Shown in pieces: positions 2,088 to 20,645 of a stretch of DNA of 32,729 bases (position 1 is the stretch's first letter; each line of letters starts with the position of its first letter). Below the pieces are notes generated by a model, which saw only the letters and a list, made by a program, of their open reading frames with translations, was not told where the DNA came from and did not search any database. This DNA comes from Pectinatus brassicae. Lineage in GTDB: Bacteria > Bacillota > Negativicutes > Selenomonadales > Selenomonadaceae. The stretch spans positions 1 through 32,729 of the forward strand of contig NZ_JACHFH010000032.1 of the NCBI RefSeq assembly GCF_014201835.1. The letters run 5' to 3'. A program made the translations under genes and the position numbers.

Positions 2088-2857
2088 TCAACCAAATTTT
2101 CTAAAAACATTCCACCATTTCATTATTATACTATCAGGAATAATCTTCGTTTTTATATGATAAATAGTTGCTATAAACCCTGGTGTTGATACATTTTTAT
2201 TTTTTTTAGCATCATGCAGCGCTTTACGCGCAACATCTTTTTTATTAGATGCAAATATAAAATTTTTCACATAGCTGTTATTTTTTGTCTTTTGTGCCGT
2301 TTCAATAAAGCTTGTATCCTTTATCCAATAGGGACATACGGCTGTCACTGATATTTTTCCGCTGATAGCTCAACTGCCAACGCCCGGCTGTAATGATACA
2401 AAAAGGCTTTACTTGCTGCATAAATATTTATATATGGCAGAGGATGAAATGCCGCTATCGAACAAATCTGCATAATATGACTGCCTTTTTTCATAAAAGG
2501 GATTACCAGCTGTGTTAGAAGCACCGCGGCCCGGCAGTTGAGATCTACCATATCAGTGCAATCTTTAATATCTATATCTTTATAACTGCCTATTTTCCCT
2601 TTACCAGCAGCATTGATTAAATATTTTACCTGTATTTTTTCCTGATACAATTTTTTTTGAATAATTATAAAAGGTTCTTTTTGCGTAAGATCAAAATCTA
2701 ATATTTCCACATTAGTCTTCATTTGTGACGCAATTTTCTCCATACCCTGCCTCGAACGTGCTATCAGCCATATTACGTCAAGTTTCTCATTATCCAACAA
2801 ATAAGTTAACTCTTCTCCCAATCCACTTGATGCCCCAGTTACTATAGCTATTTCCAT
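2088..2857 (-). pseudogene. Short-chain dehydrogenase/reductase, broken by a single-base frameshift
   Basis: The first part (from 2857) has TGASSGLG for nucleotide binding, a LINAAGKG segment (NAG motif) and the YAASK catalytic Tyr-Lys pair. It runs into TGA just after VELSAEKYQ. The next frame continues with TAVCPYWIKDTSF, the expected SDR sequence after the active site, to 2088. Adding one A to the A5 run (T5 at 2354-2358 on the plus strand) restores one frame of about 257 aa, a normal SDR length. The start at 2857 is chosen because AGAGG lies 8 nt upstream; a GTG at 2866 is too close to it. Either a recent inactivation or a sequencing error. Substrate unknown. Confidence 0.8.
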
Positions 2858-2940
2858 TCTACTCACCTCTCTTATTTTTTTATTTTATTTTCTCAGCGAA
2901 ATTCCTTTATTTTATATAAAATAACTAAACATGCCATACA

Positions 2941-2969
2941 GCTATATATAAAGCTAACCGTTTTGTAAA
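2941..2969 (-). promoter_or_regulatory. Possible promoter of the SDR gene
   Basis: TTTACA (2964-2969), 17 bp, TATAGC (2941-2946) on the minus strand. The -10 is poor. The rest of 2858-3067 shows only AT-rich non-coding sequence. Confidence 0.3.
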
Positions 2970-3067
2970 AGGTAATTATGTAATCTATTCTTAGCTTAAC
3001 TTATTTCTACTTGATTAACTGTTACTAACTTTTATAAATATGTAATTAGCACTTACTTCATAAATAC

Positions 3068-3114
3068 AAAAAGAGCAGTTTAGTCATATCAAATAGTGAC
3101 AAAACTGCTCTTTT
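3068..3114 (-). terminator. Terminator downstream of alsD (bidirectional)
   Basis: AAAAGAGCAGTT (3068-3080 region) pairs with AACTGCTCTTTT (3103-3114), with an inner GTCA/TGAC pairing. A and T tracts on both sides allow use from either strand. It follows the alsD stop by 45 nt. Confidence 0.8.
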
Positions 3115-3158
3115 ATATTTTTATTCTATATTCCTACCACAAATCACTTTAATTTTAA

Positions 3159-3866
3159 TTAACCTTCAGTAATGTTTATTTCTTTCAGCAAATCTTTACG
3201 TGATAATTGGGCATTTAAAAATGCCTTTGTCGTTGGCGTATACAAATTCATATGTGTCTTTTGATCTATATATACAGTGCCCTTATCAATTATATAATCA
3301 AATACATGGCCGCCTTTTTGCAGGCTTTCATCAATAAAATGGAAATGATAACCAGCTACCGCTATGCCTTGAGCATATGCCGGCGTCCAAAACCCAACAA
3401 TAGTTCCTTTGGTATTTTCAAATTCGATAGATTCCTGTTCCTTAACAGCCTGCACCATCGGTACATAATGTTCCTGATAACTTACCGTACGCGTACTTAC
3501 TTTTTTAAACGTGCCTTCAATCAAAATTGCATAATATAAATTTTCACTGGGTATTAAATCCTTTACCAATGTTTCAAAAGATTTTTTTGTCATTGGCTCA
3601 TCTATTTTATATTTTTTCTGCGGATTAAAATACGTTATGGTAGAAAATGGTGTAGAATCCTCTGATCCTAAAGGAATAGCTTCACCACCACGCAAGCGGT
3701 AAAATTTCCCATCAAAAGCAATAAGTTCACCATCCAAATGGTCAAATGTTCCTATGCCGAAATCGCCATGCTCTTTTATCTGATCATAAGTAAGTGCTCC
3801 ATCATAGACGCCATCGAGTAAAGAACTCATTGTGGAAATCTGATATACTTCACCAGTTTTATCCAT
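3159..3866 (-). CDS. alsD: Alpha-acetolactate decarboxylase
   Basis: A 235-aa protein of normal family length that decarboxylates acetolactate to acetoin in the cytoplasm. The metal site is visible as GYHFHF followed by GGHVFDY, giving three His ligands, preceded by a VSTRTV segment and FWTPAYAQGIAVAG. The N-terminal TMSSLLDGVYDG is also typical of the family. It follows alsS by 52 nt on the same strand, so the two form an alsS-alsD operon for acetoin formation from pyruvate, which spares acid production and recycles carbon under low pH or pyruvate excess. A hairpin terminator ends the operon. Confidence 0.95.
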   Translation of the reverse strand: MDKTGEVYQISTMSSLLDGVYDGALTYDQIKEHGDFGIGTFDHLDGELIAFDGKFYRLRGGEAIPLGSEDSTPFSTITYFNPQKKYKIDEPMTKKSFETLVKDLIPSENLYYAILIEGTFKKVSTRTVSYQEHYVPMVQAVKEQESIEFENTKGTIVGFWTPAYAQGIAVAGYHFHFIDESLQKGGHVFDYIIDKGTVYIDQKTHMNLYTPTTKAFLNAQLSRKDLLKEINITEG

Positions 3867-3918
3867 ATAAGAATTCCCCCTTCATCTATAACACCTCTTT
3901 CATATTTTTTATCAATAA

Positions 3919-5625
3919 TTAATTCAATTTATTAGGCAGCATTTTCTGCCCCAAAGCAATATTATCACTGTAATCAACCGGTATATCAACAACAACCGGA
4001 CCTTCATTATAATCAAGTGCTTCCTGAATAACATCCTGCAATTTATCTGGTGAATCCACCCGTAGCCCCTTAGCACCAAAAGCTTCAGCATATTTAACAA
4101 TATCTACCGAACCAAAATCAACACCAGAGGTACGATTGTATTTCATAACCTGTTGAAAAGCTACCATGTTGTATGACCCATCACGCCAAACGAAATGAAC
4201 AACTGGTAATTTTAATCTTACTGCCGTTTCTAATTCCATTGCTGAAAATAAAAATCCGCCATCTCCAGAAATAGATATTGTTTTAGCTTTATTATTAACG
4301 AGGCAGGCAGCAATTGCCCAAGGCAGAGCCACACCTAATGTCTGCATACCATTGCTGAATAATAATGTTTTAGGTTCATAGGCACGGAAATGACGTGCCA
4401 TCCAAATATAGTGTGAACCAATGTCGCAGGCTACTACTGTATTATCACTTATCATATTGCGCAGAGTATGAATAAATTCCAGTGGATGGACAAGATTGTC
4501 ATTGCGCAATTTTATCAAACGACTGCTTTCAGCCAACTGTTCACGCATTGCTGCCAAAAAATATCGATTTTCCTTAGTTATTTCTAATTTATTAAGATAC
4601 TTTGCTAATTCATTAACTGTTGCATCAATGCCGCCTATCAATTCAACATCAGGATAATAATAATTATCAATATCCGGCGGACATTCATCAAGATGAATAA
4701 TTGTCCGGCCATCGTTTTGATTCCAATATTTTGGATCATATTCTACCGGATCATAACCAATAGTCATTATTACATCTGCTTTTTCCAAAACCTGATCACC
4801 AGGCTGATTACGAAACAGTCCAACACGCCCAAGAAAATTTTCTTTCAAATCCCTTGAAATAAGACCAGCTGCCTGAAATGTTTCTACCACAGGAATACTG
4901 CATTTCCCCAGCAAATTTCTTACCGCTTTCACTGCTGAAAATCTGCTGGCACGAATCCCTGCCAATATTACCGGCATCTTAGCTTGCTTTAAAAGTTTAG
5001 CAGCTTTTTCAATAGAGGTGACTGATGCCATTCCCTTCTCAGTCTTTACTACTGGCTTAAAGGGGCGAACCTCCGCCTCATCAGCCAATACATCCTGTGG
5101 CAGACTTACTACTGCTGCCCCCTGTTTTGAGGACTGTGCTGAACGAAAAGCATTTGTCATAACTTCCGGTACTGTATTAGCATCAATTACTTCTGCGCTG
5201 AATTTTGTAATCGGATTAAATACGGCTACATTATCCAATGCCTGATGTGTCTTTTTTAATTTATCATCACGACTGACATTGCCTACCAAAGCTATCACTG
5301 GATCATTTTCTACATTTGCCGTTACAAGTCCGGTAGAAAGATTTGTTGCACCCGGTCCTGATGTTACAAGACAAACCCCTGGTTTACAGGTTAACCTTCC
5401 AACCATTGCTGCCATAAAAGCAGCATTTTGTTCATGCCGACAAACTATCAATTCAGGACCATGGTCTTGTAATACATCAAATACTTTATCTATTTTAGCT
5501 CCAGGTATGCCAAAAATATATTTTACATCCTGTTTTTCCAAGCTATCAACAACAAGCTCCGCACCCGTCAATCTTGTTTTTTGCGGTGCCTGCACTTTTT
5601 TCTTCTCTAAAATTAATGATTTCAT
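3919..5625 (-). CDS. alsS: Catabolic acetolactate synthase
   Basis: Thiamine-diphosphate enzyme joining two pyruvates to acetolactate. Seen in order: GIPGAKID near residue 40, the RHEQNAA segment with the catalytic Glu near 65, the central domain, and the C-terminal cofactor-binding GDGGFLF segment followed by [11 protein letters not shown]. Its closeness to Bacillus AlsS in the first 70 residues and its pairing with alsD and an alsR-like gene point to the catabolic rather than the biosynthetic enzyme; no small regulatory subunit gene is present. I start it at the ATG at 5625 (568 aa) because GGAGAGG lies 8 nt upstream; an ATG at 5652 adds nine residues but has a poorly placed RBS. Confidence 0.95.
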
Positions 5626-5652
5626 AAGCTCTACCTCTCCTGCACTTATCAT

Positions 5653-5820
5653 TCATCATCTAATAATCCTCTGGCCAGAGAAAATATGATAACTTAGTTG
5701 GTTATAAATTTTATTAATGGAATTTATTATTTTCTATAAATATAATATAACATTCGTAAATTAATTGTTCAATTACATTTTTTCGATTATTATAATAGAT
5801 ATAAACTATCATAGGAGGAA
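5653..5820. promoter_or_regulatory. Divergent alsS / alsR control region
   Basis: The only space between the divergent genes, so it must hold both promoters and any LysR-type operator. ATAAATT (5704-5710) and AATTTAT (5721-5727) form a perfect inverted repeat with a 10-bp centre, a possible regulator site. TATAAT at 5791-5796 with TTCAAT 17 bp upstream could serve alsR. No clear alsS promoter was found. Confidence 0.45.
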
Positions 5821-5823
5821 AAA

Positions 5824-6705
5824 ATGGAAATACGTCACTTGCAATACTTTATTGCTGTTTGTAAACATCTGCATTTTACCAAAGCTGCTGAAAGCCTAAA
5901 TATAGCCCAACCAACACTAAGTCAGCAAATCCATGTGCTGGAACAGGAAATTGGCGCAGAACTTTTTGACCGTGTCGGCAAAAAAGTTCTGCTTACACCT
6001 GCTGGTGAAATACTATTTCGCCATAGTATGCGCATATTTGATACCATTGAGCAGGCTTTAGCTGAAATAAGCCAACTCAACGGGCTGGAACGCGGCCAAA
6101 TAAAAGTAGCTTGTCTTGGCACTTATCTGGCTATGGAAACTATCATTGAATTTCATAAACAATACCCTAATATCCACATTGAACTGGAGCAATTATCCAC
6201 AGAACAAATACGCCATAAATTACTGCAAAATGAACTTGATTTTGGGGTTGTTTTTCTGCCATTAGCCGATAAGGAACTCGAAAGCATCCCGCTTTATCAG
6301 GAAAAAATGGTTGTTATGGCTTCAAAAAATCATCCCTTTGCCCAAAAAAAGAGCCTGCTTTTTGAAGAACTAAGCAATGCCCCACTCATAATGATGTCGG
6401 AAAATTTTATTATACGAAGAATTTTTGATCAAACCTGTCATGAAAAAGGCTGTGCCTTCACACCGATATTAGAATTAAGCCAAATGGATGACTTGCGGGA
6501 AATGGTTGAACAAAATATTGGCGTCAGCGTATTACCTTCACTTTATATCCACAGTATGTGTAATCGCCGCAGCATCAAAGCTATTCCTTTTATCAATACA
6601 CAAATCGAACGCACTATTGGCATTGTCTATCGCAAAGGCCGCCATATGTCCGCTGCTTCATTAGAACTTATTGAAAAACTGCAGGCATTTTTCCGTAAAA
6701 GATAA
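5824..6705 (+). CDS. alsR: LysR family regulator, probable activator of alsSD
   Basis: A 293-aa LysR-type regulator. The N-terminus (MEIRHLQYFIAVCKHLHFTK, then AAESLNIAQPTLSQQI) is a classic winged helix-turn-helix; residues from about 90 form the two-lobed inducer-binding domain (VACLGTYLAMETIIEFHKQY, DFGVVFLPL). AGGAGG is well placed before the ATG. Its divergent position next to alsS-alsD matches Bacillus AlsR, which activates those genes in response to acetate and acidity. The function is inferred from context; the family assignment is certain. Confidence 0.85.
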   Translation: MEIRHLQYFIAVCKHLHFTKAAESLNIAQPTLSQQIHVLEQEIGAELFDRVGKKVLLTPAGEILFRHSMRIFDTIEQALAEISQLNGLERGQIKVACLGTYLAMETIIEFHKQYPNIHIELEQLSTEQIRHKLLQNELDFGVVFLPLADKELESIPLYQEKMVVMASKNHPFAQKKSLLFEELSNAPLIMMSENFIIRRIFDQTCHEKGCAFTPILELSQMDDLREMVEQNIGVSVLPSLYIHSMCNRRSIKAIPFINTQIERTIGIVYRKGRHMSAASLELIEKLQAFFRKR

Positions 6706-6863
6706 TTAATACAAATTCATCAGCAATCTCCTTTACTTAAATAAATTTATTTTTTTAGCCTATTTTATTAAAAAAGTTACTTTTTTCTATATAATTTAAT
6801 TAAAAAATAAAGTATAATTAGACGATAAGTGTTTTTCTATTATCATAATTTGGAGGATGTTTT

Positions 6864-8240
6864 ATGAATTTATTTCGGACTAAAGACATTGAGCAAATGC
6901 GCGCCCTCGTTCGCGCTTCCGGAATGGCAAAAAATCTCGGTGTCATTGATCTTATTTTACTTGGTATCGGCGGTGTTATCGGTACGGGCATTTTTGTACT
7001 TACTGGTGTTGCTGCTGCTGAATATGCTGGTCCTGCCGTTATGCTTTCATTTATTATTTCTGGTTTTGCCTGTGGAATGGCTGGTCTTGCTTATGCTGAA
7101 TTTGCATCAATCGTTCCAGCTTCAGGCAGTGCCTATACATATTCCTATGCAGCCCTAGGTGAAATAGTCGCGTTTATTGTCGGATGGAACCTCGTACTTG
7201 AGTATACTGTTACGTCAAGTGCTGTTGCTGCCGGCTGGGCTGGCTATGTAACCGGCTTATTTAAATCAGCTGGTATTCATCTGCCCTTTGCCTTGACTCA
7301 TGTACCTGCCGATGGCGGTATTATAAATATCCCCGCCATACTAATCACATTGCTTTTATCAATATTCCTGATACGAGGCACTAAAGAAAGCACCCGTCTT
7401 AATCGAATTTTAGTTGGCGTAAAACTTTTAGCTGTTTTTATCTTCTTACTATTAGCCGGTCCACATGTAAATACTATGAACTGGCAGCCATTTATGCCAT
7501 TTGGCTTTTCCGGTGTAGCTGGTGGTGCGGCTATTGTCTTTTTTGCCTATATTGGTTTTGATGCCGTAGCCACTACTGCTGAAGAATGTAAAAATCCATC
7601 ACGAGATTTACCGATTGGCATGATTGGTTCACTTATTATCTGCACTATATTGTATGTTATTGTAGCTGCTGTACTTACTGGTGTCGTACCTTATACTCAC
7701 CTAAATAACCCTGAACCCGTAGCTTATGCCCTACGCTATATTGGTTACAATATTGGTTCAGCCCTTGTTGGGGTAGGTGCTATCTGCGGCATCACAACTG
7801 TATTATTAGTACTGTTATATGGCCAGGCTCGTATATTTTTTGCCATGAGTCGTGATGGTATGATTCCTGCTAAAATCTGTAAAATACATCCACGCTTTCA
7901 AACACCCTATCTTGTTACTATTACCGGCTGTATTTTCGTATCATTGATTGCCGGCTTTGCCCCTATCGGTGTAATTGCTGAAATGGCTAATATTGGCACA
8001 CTATCAGCTTTTTTTGTTGCCTCTCTTGGTGTAATGGTTCTGCGTATAAGAAAACCTGATCTGCCACGTACTTTTCGCTGCCCATTAATTTGGCTGGTTG
8101 GACCTCTAGCTGTATTGTCATGCGGTTACCTGATGTATAATCTACCTTGGGAAACATGGGTACGTTTTATCGTCTGGTGTATCATCGGCTTTATTATTTA
8201 CTTTAGTTATAGTTATAAACACAGCTTTCTTAATAAATAA
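6864..8240 (+). CDS. APC family amino-acid permease (YfnA/CAT-like)
   Basis: A 458-aa membrane protein with about 12 transmembrane segments. The first segment, LGIGGVIGTGIFVLTGVAAA, is the APC-family signature with the backbone-binding GVIGTG loop, and the sequence resembles the cationic amino-acid transporter branch (Bacillus YfnA). A typical short YfnA-like N-terminus (FRTKDIEQMRALVRASG) precedes it. GGAGG lies before the ATG, and TATAAT at 6813-6818 may be its -10. It stands alone between alsR and a hairpin terminator. It probably imports an amino acid with protons; the substrate is not predictable. Confidence 0.88.
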   Translation: MNLFRTKDIEQMRALVRASGMAKNLGVIDLILLGIGGVIGTGIFVLTGVAAAEYAGPAVMLSFIISGFACGMAGLAYAEFASIVPASGSAYTYSYAALGEIVAFIVGWNLVLEYTVTSSAVAAGWAGYVTGLFKSAGIHLPFALTHVPADGGIINIPAILITLLLSIFLIRGTKESTRLNRILVGVKLLAVFIFLLLAGPHVNTMNWQPFMPFGFSGVAGGAAIVFFAYIGFDAVATTAEECKNPSRDLPIGMIGSLIICTILYVIVAAVLTGVVPYTHLNNPEPVAYALRYIGYNIGSALVGVGAICGITTVLLVLLYGQARIFFAMSRDGMIPAKICKIHPRFQTPYLVTITGCIFVSLIAGFAPIGVIAEMANIGTLSAFFVASLGVMVLRIRKPDLPRTFRCPLIWLVGPLAVLSCGYLMYNLPWETWVRFIVWCIIGFIIYFSYSYKHSFLNK

Positions 8241-8250
8241 ATATTTATAG

Positions 8251-8298
8251 AAAAAGCGGGACTGCCTTCATGTATTTAAGCATGAGAACAGTCCCGCT
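8251..8298 (-). terminator. Convergent terminator between the APC and FNT genes
   Basis: AGCGGGACTG (8255-8264) pairs with CAGTCCCGCT (8289-8298). The T-tract is best on the minus strand (8251-8255), serving the FNT gene; it may also stop the permease transcript. Confidence 0.85.
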
Positions 8299-8314
8299 TC
8301 TAGTTTACTTCTTA

Positions 8315-9202
8315 TTATTTTTTCAAACATTTTTCTGCTTCTTTTAATTCGCGGCTAACTTGTGCATAAACAAGTACTGTAAATACAAATGTTCCACCCA
8401 AAATATTTCCTACTCCTGTAGGAATAAGAAAACGAATGAAATAATCATAAAGATTTGCTCCACCATTTATTACTTCATAAGCTAATTCGCTGGAACCAAC
8501 AACTACATGCGCAAAGCTCCCCAAAGATATAAAGTAAGTAAAAAATAATATCAAAAATAAACTAAAACTTTGTGACATCGGCATCATCCAAACAATCGCT
8601 GCAATGAGAATTCCTGCCGGTATTCCCTGAATTATATTTTGCATAGGCGTCATAGACACTACATGAGATGCTATCCCATGCAATGCTGCCGATAATTCCG
8701 GTGTTACAAATGTCGGTATTGATAAAAATATTGCTGCCAGCAGCGTTCCTATCAAATTTGATAAAAACACCAGTCCCCACAACCTGCTTATCTGCAATAA
8801 TTTATCTAGCGAAAATTCCCTAAATAATGGTATCACTGTTGTTATTGTGTTTTCGGTAAAAAGCTGCATTCGTCCTAAAATAACAATAATAAAACCTGAA
8901 GTATATCCTATGCTGGTAATAAGATTAGCCCACGGTTTATCTGGTAAATACATCGTAAGCACTGCCTTAAATAAAAAAGAAAATGATATTAAAATCCCCG
9001 CAGCAAAACCAGAATAAATTAAAGCTTTTGTTGGTCTTGATAATTCTTCATCACCGTCACGCCGTATAATTTCAAACAATAAATGCGGTGATAATCGTTC
9101 ATGTTCTTCTAGTATAACCTGCTCTTCACATGATATTTTGGGTTTATCATCTCCCTTTATTTTTATAATTTTTCTTTCCATACTACTATCAGCATGTATC
9201 AT
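8315..9202 (-). CDS. Formate/nitrite transporter family protein (YfdC-like)
   Basis: A 295-aa protein: about 50 charged residues at the N-terminus, then six hydrophobic segments. The segment GRMQLFTENTITTVIPLF corresponds to the conserved family motif around the first half of the pore, and FAHVVVGSSELAYEVINGG matches the second-half repeat. The long soluble N-terminus resembles the YfdC subgroup rather than FocA or NirC. FNT proteins are pentameric channels for small anions, but the YfdC subgroup's substrate is not known to me. The gene follows the nitroreductase by 32 nt, so they are likely one operon. GAGGTG lies rather far (about 13 nt) from the ATG. Confidence 0.85.
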   Translation of the reverse strand: MIHADSSMERKIIKIKGDDKPKISCEEQVILEEHERLSPHLLFEIIRRDGDEELSRPTKALIYSGFAAGILISFSFLFKAVLTMYLPDKPWANLITSIGYTSGFIIVILGRMQLFTENTITTVIPLFREFSLDKLLQISRLWGLVFLSNLIGTLLAAIFLSIPTFVTPELSAALHGIASHVVSMTPMQNIIQGIPAGILIAAIVWMMPMSQSFSLFLILFFTYFISLGSFAHVVVGSSELAYEVINGGANLYDYFIRFLIPTGVGNILGGTFVFTVLVYAQVSRELKEAEKCLKK

Positions 9203-9234
9203 TATATTTTATTTACACCTCACTTAAATCCTTA

Positions 9235-9825
9235 TTAACGTATATATGATATTATATCAGTCTTGCGTTTTGGCGCCAATTGTCCAATTACTTTTTCACC
9301 TTTATAACCTAATGTTACTGCAAAAAAGGGCTTATAATTTTCTGGAATATGCAGTTTTTCTGTTTCTGGCAAAGCAAAGAAAAAATTGACCAACCCCAGC
9401 CAACAACTGCCAATGCCAATGCTTTCTGCTGCCAGCATCATATTCACTATAGCACCAGCACAATCTACCAGCGGTGTATAGTGAAAATTGGTACCTGCTA
9501 ATGGCAACGGTGAAGAAGCAGTCTCATCACCTGATACTATAATTACTGTCGGTGCCTCATAAAATACATTAAACCGTGATGATTCCCCCATTTTATTAGC
9601 CCATTCATGCTGAGGCAACCGCATCTGTTCTTTTATTTTCTCATTCATTAAATTAAGTAAATCTTTATTTTGTATTACAGTAAAGTGCCATGGCTGACAG
9701 TTATGTCCACTTGGTGCATAGGAAGCCGCTTCAAGAATTGTTGTCAATTCTACATCTTTTATTTGCTCCGCTTGATACTGTCGCACACTTCGTCTATTTT
9801 TTATTGTCTTTAATACTTCATTCAT
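9235..9825 (-). CDS. Nitroreductase family protein
   Basis: A 196-aa flavoprotein of the NfsA/NfsB fold. IKNRRSVRQYQ near the N-terminus and APSGHNCQPWHFTVI are the FMN-binding signatures, and the C-terminal AVTLGYKGE with the KRK tail is usual in the family. Such enzymes use NAD(P)H to reduce nitro compounds, quinones or enones. I start at the ATG at 9825, preceded by GGGAGG; an in-frame ATG at 9846 lies upstream of that RBS and is unlikely. It is first in an operon with the FNT transporter, downstream of a perfect 14-bp inverted repeat. Confidence 0.9.
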   Translation of the reverse strand: MNEVLKTIKNRRSVRQYQAEQIKDVELTTILEAASYAPSGHNCQPWHFTVIQNKDLLNLMNEKIKEQMRLPQHEWANKMGESSRFNVFYEAPTVIIVSGDETASSPLPLAGTNFHYTPLVDCAGAIVNMMLAAESIGIGSCWLGLVNFFFALPETEKLHIPENYKPFFAVTLGYKGEKVIGQLAPKRKTDIISYIR

Positions 9826-12435: not shown

Positions 12436-12465
12436 TAAATCTCACCCTTATTTTAAATTATTTTT

Positions 12466-12471
12466 ATTATA
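12466..12471 (-). promoter_or_regulatory. Extended -10 promoter of the rsmH paralogue
   Basis: On the minus strand TGGTATAAT gives an extended -10 about 30 nt before the start codon; no good -35 is seen. Confidence 0.45.
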
Positions 12472-12510
12472 CCATTATTTACACCAAACTAATAAATTTA
12501 TGCTGTCCGC

Positions 12511-12539
12511 TTGTTAATATATTAATTATGCTATATAGT
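12511..12539 (+). promoter_or_regulatory. Promoter of the HD-domain gene
   Basis: TTGTTA (12511-12516), 17 bp, TATAGT (12534-12539), 54 nt before the ATG. Confidence 0.55.
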
Positions 12540-12593
12540 ATATGATTAATAGTTTTCAAATTTACAGCTTATATTAAATTGAGGAGAATTTTT

Positions 12594-13085
12594 ATGGATA
12601 GTATAACTAAAGTCCTTGATTCTATGGTTTCTTACTATGGCAGTGATATTAAACGCATCAGCCATTTTTTAAAAGTACATGGCTTTACCAAGTTAATTGC
12701 TGCCAATGAGAATCTGGACTCAGCCCAACAGGAACTTCTTGAAATCACTGCCCTTACCCACGATATTGGCATTAAAATCAGTGAAGAAAAATATAATAGC
12801 TCCGCTGGTAAATACCAGGAAATCGAAGGACCGGCTGAAGCTGAAAAAATGCTTACAGATTTGGGTATCGATGAAAAGATAATTACCCGTACCTGCTGGC
12901 TTATTGCCCATCACCATACTTATGACAATATTGATTCAGTTGATTACCAAATATTGGTAGAAGCTGATTTTCTTGTAAATATCAACGAAGATAATATGTC
13001 TGCTGCTTCAATTAAAAGTATTGAGAAGAAGATATTTAAAACTGCCTCTGGCTTAAGATTACTACATCATTTATATCCGTGTTAA
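12594..13085 (+). CDS. HD domain phosphohydrolase-like protein
   Basis: A 163-aa protein with the metal-binding HD pattern: His29 in KVHGF, the His56-Asp57 pair in LTHDIGIK, the HHH cluster at 106-108 and Asp125 in VEADFL. HD proteins hydrolyse phosphate esters of nucleotides or similar compounds; the substrate here is unknown. The start at 12594 is preceded by GAGGAG; an earlier in-frame TTG overlaps that RBS and is rejected. It is monocistronic, divergent from the rsmH paralogue, and ends at a hairpin terminator. Confidence 0.85.
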   Translation: MDSITKVLDSMVSYYGSDIKRISHFLKVHGFTKLIAANENLDSAQQELLEITALTHDIGIKISEEKYNSSAGKYQEIEGPAEAEKMLTDLGIDEKIITRTCWLIAHHHTYDNIDSVDYQILVEADFLVNINEDNMSAASIKSIEKKIFKTASGLRLLHHLYPC

Positions 13086-13104
13086 AATTTAATATTAAAT
13101 ATCA

Positions 13105-13149
13105 TAAAGAGGCCGTTTACGCATTTGCGTATAACAGCCTCTTTATTTA
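13105..13149 (+). terminator. Convergent terminator between the HD gene and the DUF4132 operon
   Basis: TAAAGAGGC (13105-13113) pairs with GCCTCTTTA (13137-13145); inside, TACGCA/TGCGTA pairs too. T-rich on the plus side; it probably serves both strands. Confidence 0.8.
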
Positions 13150-13151
13150 TT

Positions 13152-16100
13152 TTACCCTAAAAATTTTAAAATCTCGGGATCCTTTATTTTTTTATCATTG
13201 GCTAACAATAATACTTTACTGATAAGCTCGGCTGTTTTAGGATCTTCATCCACAAATGGCAAAAAGATATGGCCGCGATGCTGTGAATGAACAGGGAATA
13301 CTGGCAGCATACCACTGCCTTCTTTATGAATTACACCAGAACCAAGGTGAATATTATATCTGCCATAGTGTCCATCAATCATCATATGATGACCATCAAT
13401 AGAATAATTATCCAGCTTAAACAACTGTAGATTATATTCCAAAATAGATTTACGCATAGCCAGTGTCGAGTGATTAAGCTGGACATCAATACCTCCAACA
13501 TAAGCCACGCTTACTACAAGATCAAGATCACGCATTGTTTCTGAAAATAAAATTGGTGATAATTCCTGCATATCTTTACTCTTACCAGTTTTATTATCGA
13601 CAAATACAACTCGTTCCAATGACGGACTTTCAATTTCCGATGGCATAAACCAATCAGCATAGGAATATAAATCAATGCGCAGATTCTGCTTGTGATTTAT
13701 TTTTTCAAAACCTTCACTGTCGTTTACAATCCAGTTTCTCGATTTTAAGATGCCCAATGCTTTACGTCCTTCAATCTGATAACCGGAAAATCTTTCAGTA
13801 TAGCCATTTTGCTCTTTTTCCTCAGCTGTCATCATATATAATTCACGAAACACCTGTTTAAACGGCTGGATAATTCCATCTGCTAATATTTTTTTCTGCC
13901 AAAGCGGCCACTGTCCGACTTCATTTAAATCTGCCGGATGTGCCAGTGTCAGCTGTGCATCTTGCGGGATAATCACTTCATCAGTAAGTGTGTACATAAT
14001 ATCAGCCTTAATGAAGCCTATTTTATCTTTATATTTAAATAATAATAATTTAAGCATTGAACCAATAATCGGATGTTTTTCTAATGCTGTTATTTCCTCG
14101 CTGGTAAGAATATCTTCGTTTATCATACAATCTTCCAGCGAACGTCTGGCCCGCATAAACTGTTCTTTAAGTGATTTTTTTAGTTCATTAAGTTCTAAAA
14201 TATAAGCATTTTTTTTATATTTGGCCGGAATATTTTTTAACTGTTTGCCATTTTTTTCGACAATTATCTCTGGTTTAGATGGATTTTCCAATGACAATGC
14301 TACCGTTATTTCATCAATCTGCTTAGGTATAAAAAATTGTTCTTTGCTGTTTAACAGCTCAATTTCCATTGCCCACATAAAGCGATTTACATCATTATAG
14401 CCATAAGTCCGCGCCAGATTACTAAGAGCTATTGTCGCCTTACTAAGTTCTGTTGCCCGTCTTTGTGCACCGAACTGACGGCTTTCTTTGATAAACGCCT
14501 GCAGACGTTCATAGCGCTTAAGTGCCGATTTTTTCTTATTGCTGCCACGCAGCGGCAATAAGCCATAAGCCAGTACCATTTCCTGATTGCGCTTATCATT
14601 TATTCGTGCTAAAACTTCACTTTCTTTTAATTTACCACGTACCGCATCAGCAAAATACTGCGCTCGTTTATGATTCCCGCCCGAGGAAATATATTTGGCA
14701 CAATCGTATAATTCAGCGAATTTTTTTGTACCAAGCTCTTTATAACTGTCCTTGAACCAGTCTATGTCCATTTGTCCGGCATTAAGATCAGCAAAATCAA
14801 TATCAGTATATCGATGAACTTTAACCGCATCGGCTTTGGAAAGGCCTTCATTCATATGTGCTTTAAAGTAATAAGCTGCTTTCCTTAAGCCCTTAAATTT
14901 CAGACATTTTTCTGTGAAATCAATAAAATCAAGATTATACATTGTTGCTTCCAGTAATTTTTTGCGGGTAATCTTATATTTTTTTACTAATTCAGCAAAT
15001 TTTTCCTGTGTATCACTGTCATTAGGTTTTGCATAATAAATAATATGGGAAAACATTCCTTTTCGCCCGTTATCACCCCAGATATAACCACGAACAAACG
15101 GTGTATCAGCCATTTTATAAATAGCCTTCAAAAAAATTTCCATGCCATTAAATATATTAGCCTTATGCAGTACAGCTGAATATTCAGTCTCTGTTTCCGT
15201 ACGCTCCAGCTCTACCTTAAGCATTACATCAATCACCTTATCATATATTTCAGTAATTAATTTATCTGCTTCCTGCCGTCTTATAAGTCTTGATATTTCA
15301 TTAATTAAGCGGCTGCTGTTGGATTCCTGGAAATATCCTCTTTCTTTTTTTACTTCGGTGTCCATCAATAATTTATAAATATAATCTTCTTTAATTAAAT
15401 TATTTTTGATAAATGCCTGTAATGCTATAAGTTCTATACAATTAACCGGAGCTTTATTCATTTTTTCCGCATGCATTACTATATTAAAGATGTCCTTGAT
15501 TCTTTCGCCATCCAAGTTTTCTTTATTTACGACTTTATAGCGCAGCATTATATCTATATCACTGCTTTTATATTTATCTTCAGCTGCTTTTTCATCGAGC
15601 ATCAGCATATATTGGTATAAATCAATATAAAAATCATTATCTTTTTTATTGTTATACTTCCCCTGCTCATTTTTATATAAGCGAACAATGTCAAAAACAG
15701 CCATTACACTTTCCCAATGAGTTGACCTTTGTCCCTTATCCATTTCTTGCAGGAATTGGCGAAATTTCTTAAACTCTGGGAAATAGCCTACTGTACTTAA
15801 ATAATCAAATCGACTTATTAGTGTTTTATTATTATAAGAATTATATACCTCTTCAATAACGTCACTATAATAAATATACAATGGCAGTATATCATCATTT
15901 ATTTTATCAGCCAGTGACAAAAATTCTTCATAAAAAAGATATTCTTTATAATCATTTTTATCATAGTCTCTGCTTTTACGATGGCAGATATGACGACAAC
16001 GATAATCTATGCCAAATTTATACCATTCTTTAGTACCATCATAATTTTCATATTGACATTCCCTGCCGACTAATGATTCATGAATAGCTATGATTTTTTT

Positions 16101-18020
16101 TACTATATCGATATAAGCCGCTTCATCCAGCTTGATGAAGCTATCAATATTTTCCTGCTGATAACTAAGTTCGCCAATTTGTGGTTCATAATCTTCATCA
16201 TAGAAATTAAGCAGCTGCTGTTTTTTCTCTTTACTGTCTTTATCTATTATCTGGCTGATATAATCAGCCGTTACTGAATCTTTTTGCATTGCCTGAGCTT
16301 GTTCTATTACTCCCGTATACTGCGGTAATTTCTCCAATCGTTCTTTATTATCAAGCAATAGCACCAGCCCGCCATGACGGCATTCTTTTTTCTTATCATT
16401 AATAAGATTTTCGGCACAGCTCAAGACAATCTGCGGCTCAGCTTGTAAAAATAATTTACTGAGATATTTGCGCAAATCATTGCGGCGGCTCTTAAAATAA
16501 GCAGCTATCTGCTGATATTCTTCAGCCTGTAAAACAACATCATCCGCCTGTAATTTTTTAAAGGCAAACTGACGTATATCCCCTAAATTAGAGGATAATA
16601 ACTGCAGTGCTTTTTCTTTTACATATGGCACCTGCATATTTTTAAAACCATGTCCATATTCTAATTTATCAACATGACGATAACCAAAATCATAATGATC
16701 CTGCATACTATCGGCCAAATCTATTTGTTTTTCAATAATGCGGTTATAATAGATTTCCCGCGTTATTTCTTTATCCATTAAATGATAAGTTTTTGGTGGT
16801 TTCTTCCCAGCATTATCAAGACATTGCGCCGCTGTTATTAAATAATACAGCTTGTCATTATCATTATTGAAATACAGTTTTCTTACTGTAATATCGAGCA
16901 TAGCAATTGATAATGTCAGATTATCTTCCATCTCCATGCTTATTAAATCACTAATAGTCCGGACATCCATATATGTATTGCAACGTTCCATAAAATCAGC
17001 ACATACCACCTGCTTATAAAATGGATAATTCCTGATATTTTCATTGATAAACTGTAAAGTATTATCAAGATTATCAAGCGACATCGTATATAAAGCTATG
17101 TAAAAATCAAAGGCTGATTCACTAGCGAGATATTCCTGCTGTTTATCTTCTACAAGACATTCATAAATCTTTTGCGGCAGACGAGCCAAATTTTTATCAC
17201 TAATATCCATACTAAGTCCGGTAAAATACATAAATGACTGTTTAACCGAAGAAAAACGTATCAGATTTTCTTCAACAATATATTGCAAAAATCTTTTAAA
17301 TACACTTATCTCGGCAAAATCAATTTTACTGACAATTGATTGGCGTAATCCCTCAGCCGTTTGCGCTGTTTTCAGTAAGTCCATCACCATATCCTGTGCT
17401 TTTACCGATGTTGATGCCAGCATACCAAAGATAAGTGTCTGGGAAAAATTAAGCAAATTTTCATTATCATAAAGCATATGGGATATATAGGTATTTAATT
17501 CGTCAGCATCTTCCAAAGATAAAGCTGCTGCCCAAAACACACCGCCCGCTATACGTTCATTATATTCATCAAAATATTTTTTCCCCTGCAGATAATCTGC
17601 CGGATCAAAAGTCATATTCTGTAATAATAAAAGCTTCTGAACAAATCCACATAATTTTTCAAATTCATTATAAATGCTTTGTGGACGATAAGCTCTTACA
17701 TCGCCATAACGCTCAAATAATACCCTTGTAGCCATTAGGTCTATAGCTTTACAATATATATTTTTATAATAATCATTAAGCTGACTATAAAAAAACCTTA
17801 TTATTTCATTTTCTAATAATTCTTCCTTAGTTTTCGGTGCATTATTTAATTCCTGCTTGCGTAACGCTTGCAGCCGTTCTCGCTCTTTATAATCACCTAT
17901 ATATCTGTTTTGAATAGCCAATAAACGATCATATAGATTTATTGACTCTTTTTTAGCCATCTCCAATAATAAATTAGTCTGCTCTTTTTCATATGTATAG
18001 TAACTTGTTTTTTCTTCCAT
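13152..18020 (-). CDS. Giant DUF4132 domain protein
   Basis: A 1622-aa protein without signal peptide or membrane segments. Most of it is helical and charged, with HEAT-like repeats most evident around 480-600. The DUF4132 core lies at about 1260-1490 (LAHPADL near 1359, then QPFKQVFRELYMMT near 1385), followed by a conserved C-terminal block from about 1499 (VAYVGGIDVQLNHSTLAMRK, then LPVFPVHSQHRGHIFLPFVD, ending SKVLLLANDKKIKDP). The family includes E. coli YehI and MolR, where the same domain often follows a WGR domain and lies near MoxR/VWA genes; none of these is present here. AGGAG precedes the ATG. It is the last gene of an operon after a macro domain gene and a 133-aa gene, ending at a shared terminator. 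Biochemical role unknown. Confidence 0.85.
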   Translation of the reverse strand: MEEKTSYYTYEKEQTNLLLEMAKKESINLYDRLLAIQNRYIGDYKERERLQALRKQELNNAPKTKEELLENEIIRFFYSQLNDYYKNIYCKAIDLMATRVLFERYGDVRAYRPQSIYNEFEKLCGFVQKLLLLQNMTFDPADYLQGKKYFDEYNERIAGGVFWAAALSLEDADELNTYISHMLYDNENLLNFSQTLIFGMLASTSVKAQDMVMDLLKTAQTAEGLRQSIVSKIDFAEISVFKRFLQYIVEENLIRFSSVKQSFMYFTGLSMDISDKNLARLPQKIYECLVEDKQQEYLASESAFDFYIALYTMSLDNLDNTLQFINENIRNYPFYKQVVCADFMERCNTYMDVRTISDLISMEMEDNLTLSIAMLDITVRKLYFNNDNDKLYYLITAAQCLDNAGKKPPKTYHLMDKEITREIYYNRIIEKQIDLADSMQDHYDFGYRHVDKLEYGHGFKNMQVPYVKEKALQLLSSNLGDIRQFAFKKLQADDVVLQAEEYQQIAAYFKSRRNDLRKYLSKLFLQAEPQIVLSCAENLINDKKKECRHGGLVLLLDNKERLEKLPQYTGVIEQAQAMQKDSVTADYISQIIDKDSKEKKQQLLNFYDEDYEPQIGELSYQQENIDSFIKLDEAAYIDIVKKIIAIHESLVGRECQYENYDGTKEWYKFGIDYRCRHICHRKSRDYDKNDYKEYLFYEEFLSLADKINDDILPLYIYYSDVIEEVYNSYNNKTLISRFDYLSTVGYFPEFKKFRQFLQEMDKGQRSTHWESVMAVFDIVRLYKNEQGKYNNKKDNDFYIDLYQYMLMLDEKAAEDKYKSSDIDIMLRYKVVNKENLDGERIKDIFNIVMHAEKMNKAPVNCIELIALQAFIKNNLIKEDYIYKLLMDTEVKKERGYFQESNSSRLINEISRLIRRQEADKLITEIYDKVIDVMLKVELERTETETEYSAVLHKANIFNGMEIFLKAIYKMADTPFVRGYIWGDNGRKGMFSHIIYYAKPNDSDTQEKFAELVKKYKITRKKLLEATMYNLDFIDFTEKCLKFKGLRKAAYYFKAHMNEGLSKADAVKVHRYTDIDFADLNAGQMDIDWFKDSYKELGTKKFAELYDCAKYISSGGNHKRAQYFADAVRGKLKESEVLARINDKRNQEMVLAYGLLPLRGSNKKKSALKRYERLQAFIKESRQFGAQRRATELSKATIALSNLARTYGYNDVNRFMWAMEIELLNSKEQFFIPKQIDEITVALSLENPSKPEIIVEKNGKQLKNIPAKYKKNAYILELNELKKSLKEQFMRARRSLEDCMINEDILTSEEITALEKHPIIGSMLKLLLFKYKDKIGFIKADIMYTLTDEVIIPQDAQLTLAHPADLNEVGQWPLWQKKILADGIIQPFKQVFRELYMMTAEEKEQNGYTERFSGYQIEGRKALGILKSRNWIVNDSEGFEKINHKQNLRIDLYSYADWFMPSEIESPSLERVVFVDNKTGKSKDMQELSPILFSETMRDLDLVVSVAYVGGIDVQLNHSTLAMRKSILEYNLQLFKLDNYSIDGHHMMIDGHYGRYNIHLGSGVIHKEGSGMLPVFPVHSQHRGHIFLPFVDEDPKTAELISKVLLLANDKKIKDPEILKFLG

Positions 18021-18062
18021 GTATTTTCTCCTATTCGGGGATATTTTTCATCTTTTATACTA

Positions 18063-18464
18063 TTAGAAGCAGCGGCCGGCCAGCATTGTCAGGCGCACTA
18101 AAACAATAACATCATTATTTTGCAATGATAAAACTGTATTTGTATCTTCAATCTGCTTATCATTAATAAAAACCACAAATAACCCATCGTTAAATGCTTC
18201 TATTGCTGTTCTTTTTGCCTCACTGCGGTCAATCACTACATCTTCACGATATTTAAAACCAAAAGTTACCTTGCCCTGTTCCAGCATAGTATCGATATCA
18301 GCCTGACTTAATACTTTAAGTTCATCCTGTTCATAACGGTCAATTTCACAATCAACCAATGCACCAATAAGTTCCAGCAGATTTTTTACTGCTGTCAGCT
18401 CATAATCACGATATTCAATATTACGCCTTTTTGCTGCTGATTTTACTGCAATTTTTACTATCAT
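18063..18464 (-). CDS. Unknown 133-aa protein, possible beta-grasp C-terminus
   Basis: No family recognised. The first part (to about 60) alternates a strand (MIVKIAVKS) with a helix (TAVKNLLELIGALVD). The C-terminal 45 residues read as strand, turn, strand: GLFVVFINDKQIEDTNTVL, then LQNNDVIVLVRLTMLAGRCF. The spacing of a VxIN turn, a short acidic loop and a 'dgD-V-L-R-L-AG' ending recalls MoaD/ThiS and ubiquitin-like beta-grasp proteins; this is a visual resemblance only, and the tail lacks a clean terminal Gly-Gly. AAGGAG precedes the ATG. It sits 16 nt after the macro domain gene and 42 nt before the DUF4132 giant, so all three are probably made together. Confidence 0.75.
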   Translation of the reverse strand: MIVKIAVKSAAKRRNIEYRDYELTAVKNLLELIGALVDCEIDRYEQDELKVLSQADIDTMLEQGKVTFGFKYREDVVIDRSEAKRTAIEAFNDGLFVVFINDKQIEDTNTVLSLQNNDVIVLVRLTMLAGRCF

Positions 18465-18480
18465 ATCTGCTCCTTATCAT

Positions 18481-18927
18481 TTATCTGCCAGTAAATTTTA
18501 CTAAAGTATGATTTTCACCAGCCAGCTCTTCATCAATAATTTTTGCTATTATTTCCCAGTCACCGCCGGCCAGACCAGCTCCGATAAGCGGATAACCGAT
18601 TTTTTTACCGGAAAAATCTTTTTTTATTGCTCGAAACACCTGACGAACAGCTTCATAATAAACTAAACAACCTTTTCCCCGCCAGTTAAACTGTGTATAG
18701 GCATTGATAACAGTAACCTGTTCAATTTTTGCTTTTGAATAAGTCCCCATTTTAGCCTTGCTGCCTTTTTCCGTCTGACAATCAGCTGCATAAGCCTCGG
18801 GAAATTGCTGTTTAATTGATTTAGCAATACCCGCTCCCATAGTACAATGACAATTGCAGCCATGAACAATCACATCAAACTTGCCTTGCTTAGCCAGCAT
18901 TAAAAGATCACCTGTAATAATTTTCAT
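18481..18927 (-). CDS. Macro domain (ADP-ribose-binding) protein
   Basis: A 148-aa stand-alone macro domain. Ligand-pocket signatures are visible: ITGDLL at 4-9 (Asp7 for adenine), VHGCNCHCTMGAGIAKSIKQ at 21-40 with the Gly-rich loop, VINAYTQF, and the phosphate loop PLIGAGLAGGDW at 113-124. Macro domains bind ADP-ribose, O-acetyl-ADP-ribose or ADP-ribose-1''-phosphate, and many hydrolyse ADP-ribose from proteins or nucleic acids. The CxC in the first loop is unusual. GAGGGG precedes the ATG, with a sigma-A promoter at 19019-19048. It heads the operon with the 133-aa protein and DUF4132. Confidence 0.92.
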   Translation of the reverse strand: MKIITGDLLMLAKQGKFDVIVHGCNCHCTMGAGIAKSIKQQFPEAYAADCQTEKGSKAKMGTYSKAKIEQVTVINAYTQFNWRGKGCLVYYEAVRQVFRAIKKDFSGKKIGYPLIGAGLAGGDWEIIAKIIDEELAGENHTLVKFTGR

Positions 18928-19018
18928 TAATATCCCCTCTTTCTATAATATTCAGCTTATAAATCTAAGTATTCAAGAATATAAATTATTAGTTGGTCTT
19001 TTATTACTTAATATTTAT

Positions 19019-19048
19019 ATATTACGATTACTAGTATTTATATGTCAA
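19019..19048 (-). promoter_or_regulatory. Promoter of the macro-DUF4132 operon
   Basis: On the minus strand a perfect TTGACA (19043-19048), 18 bp, TAATAT (19019-19024). The leader is about 85 nt. Confidence 0.65.
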
Positions 19049-19076
19049 TAAAACTTCCTAAAAATAAATATAGCAT

Positions 19077-19122
19077 AAAAAAAAGGCATATTTTTGTCAT
19101 TAGCAACAAAATATGCCTTTTC
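19077..19122 (-). terminator. Terminator of the C39-like gene
   Basis: AAAAGGCATATTTTTGT (19081-19097) pairs with ACAAAATATGCCTTTT (19106-19121), and T8 follows on the minus strand. It separates this gene from the macro operon. Confidence 0.85.
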
Positions 19123-19133
19123 TTGTTATTTAA

Positions 19134-19733
19134 TTACTTCGCATCAATTAATACAATACCGCCCTTACGCTCATAGCCGCTGTCCCATAAATCATCGAGT
19201 GACAGCCAATGCTCTGCCCCATATGTTATTGCTTTAACCATAAGATTATCACCTGTTTTTTTATAACCGGCCAGCCAAAACCAATGCCAAACATAATCAC
19301 TAAGCTCAGGATCTTTATGTTTAAGATTAAGATACGGTACAGGCATTTTTTTATCTATTTGCGCACATACTGCATTTTTAAAATTAATTAATGAACAATT
19401 GCTGTATATACCGGCAAAATTTGTATTTTTCTCACCATTATCAGCAAGATAGTCCTTAAAACCATCCATAAATATTTCCAATGTATCTATTCCTGTTACT
19501 CTTGGCGATAAATACGGCTTCATTATATTGGAAAAATTTATATAATCTTTTTTGCTAATCTGTGCCAAATTATATGGATATAATAATTTTTTACCAAAAT
19601 ACAATGATAAATATATACAGATATCACAGGCTGTAACTGCACCACAGCCACCAAGTTTCATCCAATAATCAGTAAACCAATCCTGATTGCCGCCTATAGC
19701 TTTATCTATTGTAAAAAGTTTTAATTCATCCAT
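19134..19733 (-). CDS. Papain-like/C39-type cysteine peptidase-like protein, unknown role
   Basis: A 199-aa protein without signal peptide. MKLGGCGAVTACDICIYL places a Cys at residue 30 at the start of a helix, as in C39 peptidases, and PVPYLNLKHKD followed by VWHWFWLAGYKK gives the usual strand, His150 and next strand; LSLDDLWDSG supplies acidic candidates near 180-184. The Cys/His/Asp assignment is an inference from spacing. The start at 19733 is favoured by GGTGA five bases upstream; an ATG at 19751 has no RBS. Monocistronic, between larB and the macro operon. It could also be a non-catalytic relative. Confidence 0.65.
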   Translation of the reverse strand: MDELKLFTIDKAIGGNQDWFTDYWMKLGGCGAVTACDICIYLSLYFGKKLLYPYNLAQISKKDYINFSNIMKPYLSPRVTGIDTLEIFMDGFKDYLADNGEKNTNFAGIYSNCSLINFKNAVCAQIDKKMPVPYLNLKHKDPELSDYVWHWFWLAGYKKTGDNLMVKAITYGAEHWLSLDDLWDSGYERKGGIVLIDAK

Positions 19734-19810
19734 TATATTCACCCAATTCATATCTAAAATAATTTTTTATATTATACCATTTTACTATTATTTTTCCAAT
19801 TATAATTTTA

Positions 19811-19857: not shown

Positions 19858-20604
19858 TCATAAATGATTTATCATACTGGCTGAATAAGCAGCTCCAAAA
19901 CCATTGTCAATATTTACCACGCTAATACCACTGGCACAGCTATTAAGCATAGTAAGCAGTGCTGTCAGGCCACCAAAGCTAGTACCATATCCCACGCTTG
20001 TCGGTACTGCGATCAACGGCTTATCAATTAATCCGCCAATAACACTGGCCAATGCGCCTTCCATTCCGGCAACAACAATCACAACCTTGGCCCCACGTAT
20101 AATATCAAGCTTATCAAAAAGACGATGAATACCTGCTACTCCGACGTCAACTATCTTTTCTACTTTATTGCCCAGTATTTCAGCTGTAGCTGTCGCTTCT
20201 TCCACTACTGGTAAATCTGATGTTCCTGCCGACACTATCGCTATATAGTTATCTGTCAGCTTCGTTTCTTTTTGTCTGATGGTAATTATCCGTCCCAGCT
20301 CATTATAAACTGCCTCTGGACAAATTTTATAAACTGCCTCATATGTATCTTTATCGGCTCTGGTAGCCAGTATATTATTTTTTTTCGTCAACATAAATTC
20401 AATAATTTTAACGACCTGCTCTACTGTTTTACCCGCACAGTAAATCACTTCAGGATAACCATTACGCAGTTCCCGCTCATTATCAATTTTGGCAAACCCC
20501 AAATCTTTATAAGAAAAATCTTCCAGCTCTTTTAAAGCATTATCTATACTCATATTGTTTTGCTGCACTTGCTGTAAAAGAGATTTTAATTCTTCTTTAT
20601 TCAT
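19858..20604 (-). CDS. larB: LarB-type NaAD carboxylase/hydrolase (nickel-pincer cofactor synthesis)
   Basis: LarB carboxylates the nicotinate ring of NaAD and hydrolyses the dinucleotide, the first step of nickel-pincer nucleotide synthesis for lactate racemase-type enzymes. The PurE-like half is clear: [61 protein letters not shown] and [19 protein letters not shown], whose Cys (about 223) corresponds to the catalytic Cys of Lactobacillus LarB. Several Met codons cluster at the start; AAGGA supports 20604 or 20607. No larA, larC or larE is in the window, so it is an orphan here. It has a MerR-type promoter. Confidence 0.9.
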
Positions 20605-20645
20605 CATATTCATCCTTACCATTATTTAAATTTATTCTTTATCTA

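Follow-up and report, generated by a model that had tools for sequence, protein, structure and literature searches.

The window analysed here is one whole contig of 32,729 nucleotides from the 2.85-Mb genome of Pectinatus brassicae. Its minus strand carries three closely spaced genes, encoding a macro-domain protein (P0003), a small protein (P0002) and a giant protein with a DUF4132 domain (P0001). The question raised by this locus is whether the three genes form one functional unit, as was suggested by a first-pass annotation that proposed a three-gene system linked to ADP-ribose chemistry, or whether some other unit is conserved, and what that unit might do. We find the observation itself confirmed and its interpretation partly supported. 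The finding survives in a changed form, as a pair consisting of a predicted ubiquitin-fold protein and a DUF4132-DUF7737 protein that is damage-controlled where studied, and not as a macro/ADP-ribose trio.

Gene order and boundaries of the locus

The coordinates of the three minus-strand ORFs and the gaps between them, 16 nt between the macro and the small gene and 42 nt between the small and the giant gene, were verified, and the macro and DUF4132 identities were borne out by Pfam. The features of the region are as follows.

12436..19133, both strands: block holding the macro, small and giant genes together with the HD-domain gene convergent to them, absent from between the orthologous flanks in the sister genome G004
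13104..13146, minus strand: stem-loop 3' of the giant gene (fold of 13095-13160, -28.5 kcal/mol, z -7.9 against shuffles)
13152..18020, minus strand: giant P0001, 1622 aa, DUF5724-DUF4132-DUF7737 (Pfam)
13164..13460, minus strand: DUF7737 domain, giant residues 1521-1619 (Pfam)
13731..14249, minus strand: DUF4132 domain, giant residues 1258-1430 (Pfam, 140.6 bits against a cut-off of 27)
14367..17930, minus strand: DUF5724 region, giant residues 31-1218 (Pfam; the structural model covers residues from 878 and is helical there)
18063..18464, minus strand: small partner P0002, 133 aa, predicted ubiquitin/MoaD-like beta-grasp (homologues upstream of giants; AlphaFold2 model; fold comparison)
18066..18092, minus strand: conserved C-terminal tail of P0002, LTMLAGRCF (residue counts; pLDDT)
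18481..18927, minus strand: macro-domain protein P0003, 148 aa (Pfam Macro, E 4e-9)
19019..19048, minus strand: promoter-like TTGACA-18-TAATAT (consensus match only)
19078..19124, minus strand: terminator-like hairpin that belongs to the preceding gene and sets it apart from the trio (fold of 19060-19125, z -4.5, T run)

Both ends of the trio are marked, since a stem-loop follows the giant gene (z -7.9), as the claim of a closing terminator had it, and a hairpin follows the preceding gene (z -4.5). The idea of a compact operon is supported. The stem-loop at 13104..13146 perhaps also serves the convergent HD-domain gene (12579-13085, plus strand), which lies inside the block. One strong promoter had also been claimed. 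A match to the consensus is indeed present at 19048-19019, but its strength is unproven because the number of promoter-like sites in the region does not stand out clearly from that in shuffled sequence (49 sites against a shuffle mean of 39.5, sd 5.8). The trio is preceded by a gene for a 205-aa protein (19134-19751, minus strand) that has no Pfam or NCBIfam match and whose counterparts in each of the four sister genomes share 63-72% identity with it. Further upstream, at 19858-20622 on the minus strand, lies a gene for LarB, a protein of nickel-pincer cofactor synthesis (306 bits; cut-off 175).

The proposed link to ADP-ribose had been drawn through WGR domains, which were said to occur often in DUF4132 proteins elsewhere. 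They do occur in two such proteins described below, but P0001 contains no WGR domain at E 1 in Pfam, and this line of reasoning is not supported for the giant.

The small protein and the giant as a conserved pair

A survey of the neighbours of DUF4132 genes had been suggested as a check of the system, and its outcome was divided: the small gene proved to be conserved beside the giant, and the macro gene did not. Of at least 576 giant relatives in a species-genome collection, the 80 that scored best were inspected. A small ORF was found upstream of the giant in 74 of these 80 loci, and in the six others (L033, L036, L055, L059, L076 and L093) the available sequence stops within 0-242 nt of the start of the giant ORF. 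These 80 loci lean to Paenibacillaceae, and several are metagenome-assembled genomes (MAGs). All 87 loci with both genes, a set that includes the window's own locus and excludes the duplicates L010 and L013, have them on one strand, and in 82 of the 87 the gap, measured to the first possible start, is at most 89 nt. The five wider gaps (L069, L086, L039, L008 and L057) range from 184 to 2703 nt. The giant ORF is split in L009/L012, L008/L013 and L057, and one TGA is reported in G062; some of these copies may therefore be broken, or their sequences in error. Among 398 genomes of the phylum, a DUF5724 giant over the cut-off, the small protein and DUF7737 were each found in nine, and these were the same nine genomes; in a tenth (G071) the giant match reached 17 bits only, which is under the cut-off.

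The pair is not confined to one phylum. Judged from their titles, the pair loci among the 80 top-scoring relatives (out of at least 576) belong to Bacillota, Bacteroidota, Planctomycetota, Lentisphaerota, Actinomycetota and Pseudomonadota, the last represented by an uncultured MAG only, and plasmid records add Deinococcus and Bacteroides to the range. An archaeal MAG contains the giant at a contig end and without the small gene. More distant DUF4132-DUF7737 proteins without DUF5724 are found in Novosphingobium and Nonomuraea, and both have a small protein encoded directly upstream: with a 64-row model the Novosphingobium protein was detected at E 4e-7 (ORFs of three loci) and the Nonomuraea protein at E 1e-5, and the latter reached E 1e-8 once the Novosphingobium protein had been added to the model (ORFs of eight loci). 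The small partner was not detected in an Acetobacter locus (L154) and a second Nonomuraea locus (L158), where DUF7737 is present, nor in five loci (L159-L163) with DUF4132 proteins devoid of DUF7737, two of which contain WGR. The small protein, listed at first as an unknown, still has no Pfam family over the cut-off, and it is now seen to be the conserved partner of the giant.

The macro gene behaves differently. In the ORFs of 97 loci, a search with P0003 at E values up to 10 returned its own locus only, and so did a macro HMM built from 19 sequences, which recovers its own 19 sources. At the other 86 pair loci the sequence available upstream of the small gene amounts to at least 450 nt in 83 and at least 1000 nt in 77. 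No second macro protein besides P0003 turned up in its own genome, and relatives occur in 2716 of 50,697 phage records, 59 of 72,556 plasmids and 19 of 299 phylum genomes (its own included); seven of 20 phage relatives among the matches listed are annotated as phosphatase. P0003 matches the NCBIfam profile of DarG at 59 bits (cut-off 250) and has a weak DarG match in PADLOC (57 bits), but unlike in DarTG its neighbours are the small gene and the genus-conserved 205-aa gene. The macro domain of Thoeris ThsA was not found in P0003 over its cut-off (18.4 bits against 25). The conserved unit is therefore two genes, small and giant, and not three; the macro gene looks like a local addition inside the block and outside the conserved pair, although it may be co-transcribed and useful at its own locus.

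It is still considered very improbable that the three genes make up a true ADP-ribose module. The 16-nt gap, the shared boundaries of the transcription unit and the joint presence of all three genes in one block that is missing from sister G004 would agree with such a module, but no macro ORF stands at the other pair loci scanned, the giant lacks WGR, and the relatives of P0003 are scattered over phages, plasmids and genomes. An anti-phage defence module with the macro protein as a sensor or eraser of ADP-ribose we likewise consider quite improbable. The patchy distribution with apparent transfer, the insertion as a block and the weak DarG match of P0003 are what one might expect of defence genes, but neither the giant nor the small protein matches a PADLOC model, among 136 neighbours each PADLOC family matched at E 1e-10 is represented three times at most, scanning of the other pair loci turned up no macro gene, and the best-described regulation of the pair is by DNA damage (see below). 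A viral origin was also considered and rejected: viral_contigs gave 37 pattern matches, none of them a relative, and the distant Novosphingobium giant has no match in phage records.

Predicted fold of the small protein and a putative mechanism

Structure prediction, another check that had been suggested, was fruitful for the small protein and less so for the giant. The AlphaFold2 model of P0002, built with 60 sequences, is a beta-grasp with a mean pLDDT of 84, and it has the beta-beta-alpha-beta-beta-beta topology with a free C-terminal tail, the scores of the comparisons being moderate. The best Foldseek rows include ubiquitin-like domains, SUMO and MoaD, and also PI3-kinase domains, none of them at E <= 0.001 (best 0.017). 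Comparison with VIA-align 2 gave Z 8.2 with a U11 snRNP protein (8y6o_X; rmsd 4.1, 88 aligned), the only Z value to reach 8, followed by Z 7.8 with human molybdopterin synthase (5mpo_B; rmsd 4.6, 80 aligned), Z of about 6.5 with ubiquitins (rmsd mostly 2.3-3.3, about 70 aligned) and Z 6.4 with Urm1 (rmsd 4.0, 88 aligned). P0002 itself has no ThiS match in Pfam, and the list of its solved relatives by sequence begins at E 0.15. When 64 rows of the family were compared with Pfam, ThiS-like appeared in two (best E 0.047), ThiS in two (best E 0.095) and Urm1 in one, all at E 0.03-0.1, and in the same list the unrelated EcsC appeared in three rows (best E 0.006). Because the Pfam matches are no better than those to unrelated families, the fold rests on the model. 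A MoaD/SAMP1-like fold has also been predicted for the Deinococcus protein DR_A0165, as given in the accessible part of PMC9650054. Taken as a prediction, P0002 would be a ubiquitin/MoaD-like beta-grasp protein, and a large DUF family would thereby acquire a specific partner whose predicted fold can be recognised.

Few parts of P0002 are as well conserved as its C-terminal tail. Leu and Gly in alignment columns 162 and 164 are present in all 87 rows, and the other tail residues are Thr in 80, Met in 82, Ala in 77 and a final Trp in 76 of them; likewise L128 and G130 are invariant in the 64 rows. As to the ends, 80 of the 87 tails read G-x-x-aromatic, LAGR-x-aromatic accounts for 52, and only three end in GG. 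A terminal GG is seen in Deinococcus (LTALAGG) and in the proteins from Novosphingobium (LTPLKGG) and Nonomuraea (LVPLVGG). The P0002 of the window ends in GRCF, and its residues 129-133 are disordered in the monomer model (pLDDT below 50).

In the giant the C-terminal half is the more conserved part, with 40 rows being 36-53% identical to the window's protein over this half, compared with ten rows at 26-29% over the full length of P0001. The C-terminal model has a pLDDT of 88 and no PDB match in Foldseek at E <= 0.001, so no active site was picked out, and solved relatives by sequence were none. Two candidates from the PDB comparison, which mostly covered little of the model past residue 339, were set aside as too weak to use: importin-type repeats against the helical part (best Z 8.8, rmsd 2.4, 71 aligned) and 2pww against model residues 528-630 (Z 8.1, rmsd 2.7, 95 aligned).

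In molybdopterin synthase the tail of the small subunit MoaD is flexible and functional, and it enters MoaE. The beta-grasp fold of the small subunit in MoaD-MoaE (MOCS2) is like the one predicted for P0002, but here the partner is a DUF5724-DUF4132-DUF7737 protein of about 1600 aa, there is no ThiS match, and 80 of the 87 tails are capped. By our reading, the small protein and the giant would be produced jointly, as a complex induced by stress. The disordered, conserved tail would enter the DUF4132-DUF7737 core of the giant much as the MoaD tail enters MoaE, and the small protein would act as a working or regulatory subunit and not as a freely attached tag. A complex with a docked tail is the simplest reading because the tail is disordered and yet near-invariant, the partner is encoded next to it, and the C-terminal half of the giant is the more conserved one; even so, we would place its chance of being right at about one half. 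Counting against it are the loci that have DUF7737 and no detected small partner, the lack of a GAACNNNNGTTC-type box near the trio, and two published results on DR_A0165 given below, namely the higher H2O2 resistance of the deletion mutant and Trx1 as a binding partner. From these data we infer a physical complex, tail docking and damage induction of the window's copy, together with any enzymatic activity that the complex may have. The tail-in-core mechanism can be tested in D. radiodurans.

The beta-grasp prediction also brings to mind ubiquitin-like conjugation or a thiocarboxylate pathway, in which the C-terminal Gly would be activated, either by a housekeeping ThiF/MoeB protein or by the giant, and then be attached to targets or serve as a sulfur carrier, the tail cap being removed first in most lineages. 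The predicted ubiquitin/MoaD-like fold, the terminal GG in three lineages and the two ThiF-family genes in the window's genome agree with this, but most tails are capped, a comparison of both these ThiF proteins with the ORFs of the 97 loci gave nothing at E 1e-3, and the 25 neighbour families listed, out of 206, include none of the E1, E2 or JAB type (longest-ORF calls from up to 38 chosen loci, proteins above 900 aa dropped). We regard this pathway as possible but rather unlikely. Since a cap is present on most tails and the 97 loci yielded no ThiF-type neighbour, we favour docking over free conjugation. It seems unlikely that the pair is a damage-induced ubiquitin-like system devoid of the usual E1-E2-E3, spread over several phyla in terminal-GG and capped forms, in which the giant itself would activate, hold or transfer the small protein via its DUF4132-DUF7737 core. 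If the tail should turn out to be activated or transferred, this would be a bacterial ubiquitin-like system of a new design.

Origin of the block and stress regulation of the pair

The giant is present in one of five genomes of the genus within a 60-genome set and in ten of 189 genomes of the family, and neither the giant nor the macro protein has a match in the four other genus genomes. In the window the trio and the convergent HD gene stand between the 205-aa gene and rsmH. In the one sister whose stretch shows both flanks (G004, locus L136) the 205-aa gene is matched up to 2091 and rsmH from 2144 onwards, so that the two matches are about 50 nt apart. Two giants of another genus of the family (L119 and L121) are identical in DNA to the giants of Selenomonas infelix and S. 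flueggei over about 5 kb. The window's giant groups with Boudabousia of the Actinomycetota (100/100) and apart from the two Selenomonas rows in a tree built from 45 C-terminal sequences, the window's row being flagged for unusual residue make-up. The base composition of the locus is ordinary (31-36% G+C). We read the block as horizontally acquired, although its absence in the sisters may instead reflect loss there. The HD gene for its part has relatives of 51-53% identity in three of the four sister genomes, with no rsmH match in the stretches around them.

A role in repair or stress signalling was among those first considered, and here the best-studied copy of the pair gives support. DRA0165-DRA0166 of Deinococcus radiodurans (DR_A0165 is SEP068184) is a homologous pair in the same order, with a giant of the same three Pfam families, a DdrO operator upstream and no macro gene in the annotated stretch; the tail of DRA0165 ends LAGG where P0002 has LAGRCF. 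According to the available text of PMC8533742, which calls the pair an operon, a DdrO motif lies 83 nt upstream of DRA0165, depletion of DdrO strongly up-regulates drA0165-drA0166, and mitomycin C raises DRA0166-V5 in the wild type and not in an irrE mutant. In Deinococcus the module belongs to the DNA-damage response governed by DdrO and IrrE.

We found the DdrO-type palindrome TTATGCTATTTACATAA as an exact match upstream of the pair in L015 (D. radiodurans) and L016, and with two mismatches in L017; in L015, where it precedes DRA0165, it lies about 80 nt upstream of 7006. In the accessible part of PMC9650054, DR_A0165 is described as a cytoplasmic protein that binds Trx1 and whose deletion increases both H2O2 resistance and catalase, and it is called Deinococcus-only and devoid of an RDRM motif. 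These last two statements, as they stand in that part of the paper, conflict with the homologues in other phyla and with TTATGCTATTTACATAA upstream in L015 and L016, respectively. The papers found on DUF4132/DUF5724 proteins and DRA0165-DRA0166, judged from titles, abstracts and available passages, contain the Deinococcus operon and not the pair as a wider system, and the accessible portions of PMC8533742, PMC7824862 and PMC9650054 do not treat the pair as a conserved system. Two stress genes of Deinococcus, of which one had been described as restricted to that genus, now become one widespread and tightly linked pair.

Around the trio in the window we found no GAACNNNNGTTC within one mismatch, and GAACNNNNGTTC may not be the LexA site of this lineage. 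LexA-like boxes were scanned across the pair loci with the Bacillus LexA consensus. With at most two mismatches and within 250 nt upstream, such boxes occur at 20 of 60 pair loci compared with 15 of 411 other genes in the same loci, and with three mismatches the counts are 28 of 60 and 144 of 411 (p 0.056). The enrichment at some pair loci is suggestive only, because the rows are related, the boxes are a mixture in which several are other palindromes, only four have a single mismatch, and the difference fades at three mismatches.

The two WGR-containing proteins mentioned above, of E. coli (L163) and Sinorhizobium (L159), are of the MolR/YehI type and have the DUF4132 domain in common with P0001; they carry WGR, lack DUF7737, and no small partner was found in these two loci. 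Membership of the LexA regulon is mentioned in connection with MolR in the available text of PMC8533742. The Sinorhizobium protein, in a stretch at 2256-9314 of its locus, is encoded beside DUF5682, VWA and SWIM genes, which is a different DUF4132 neighbourhood.
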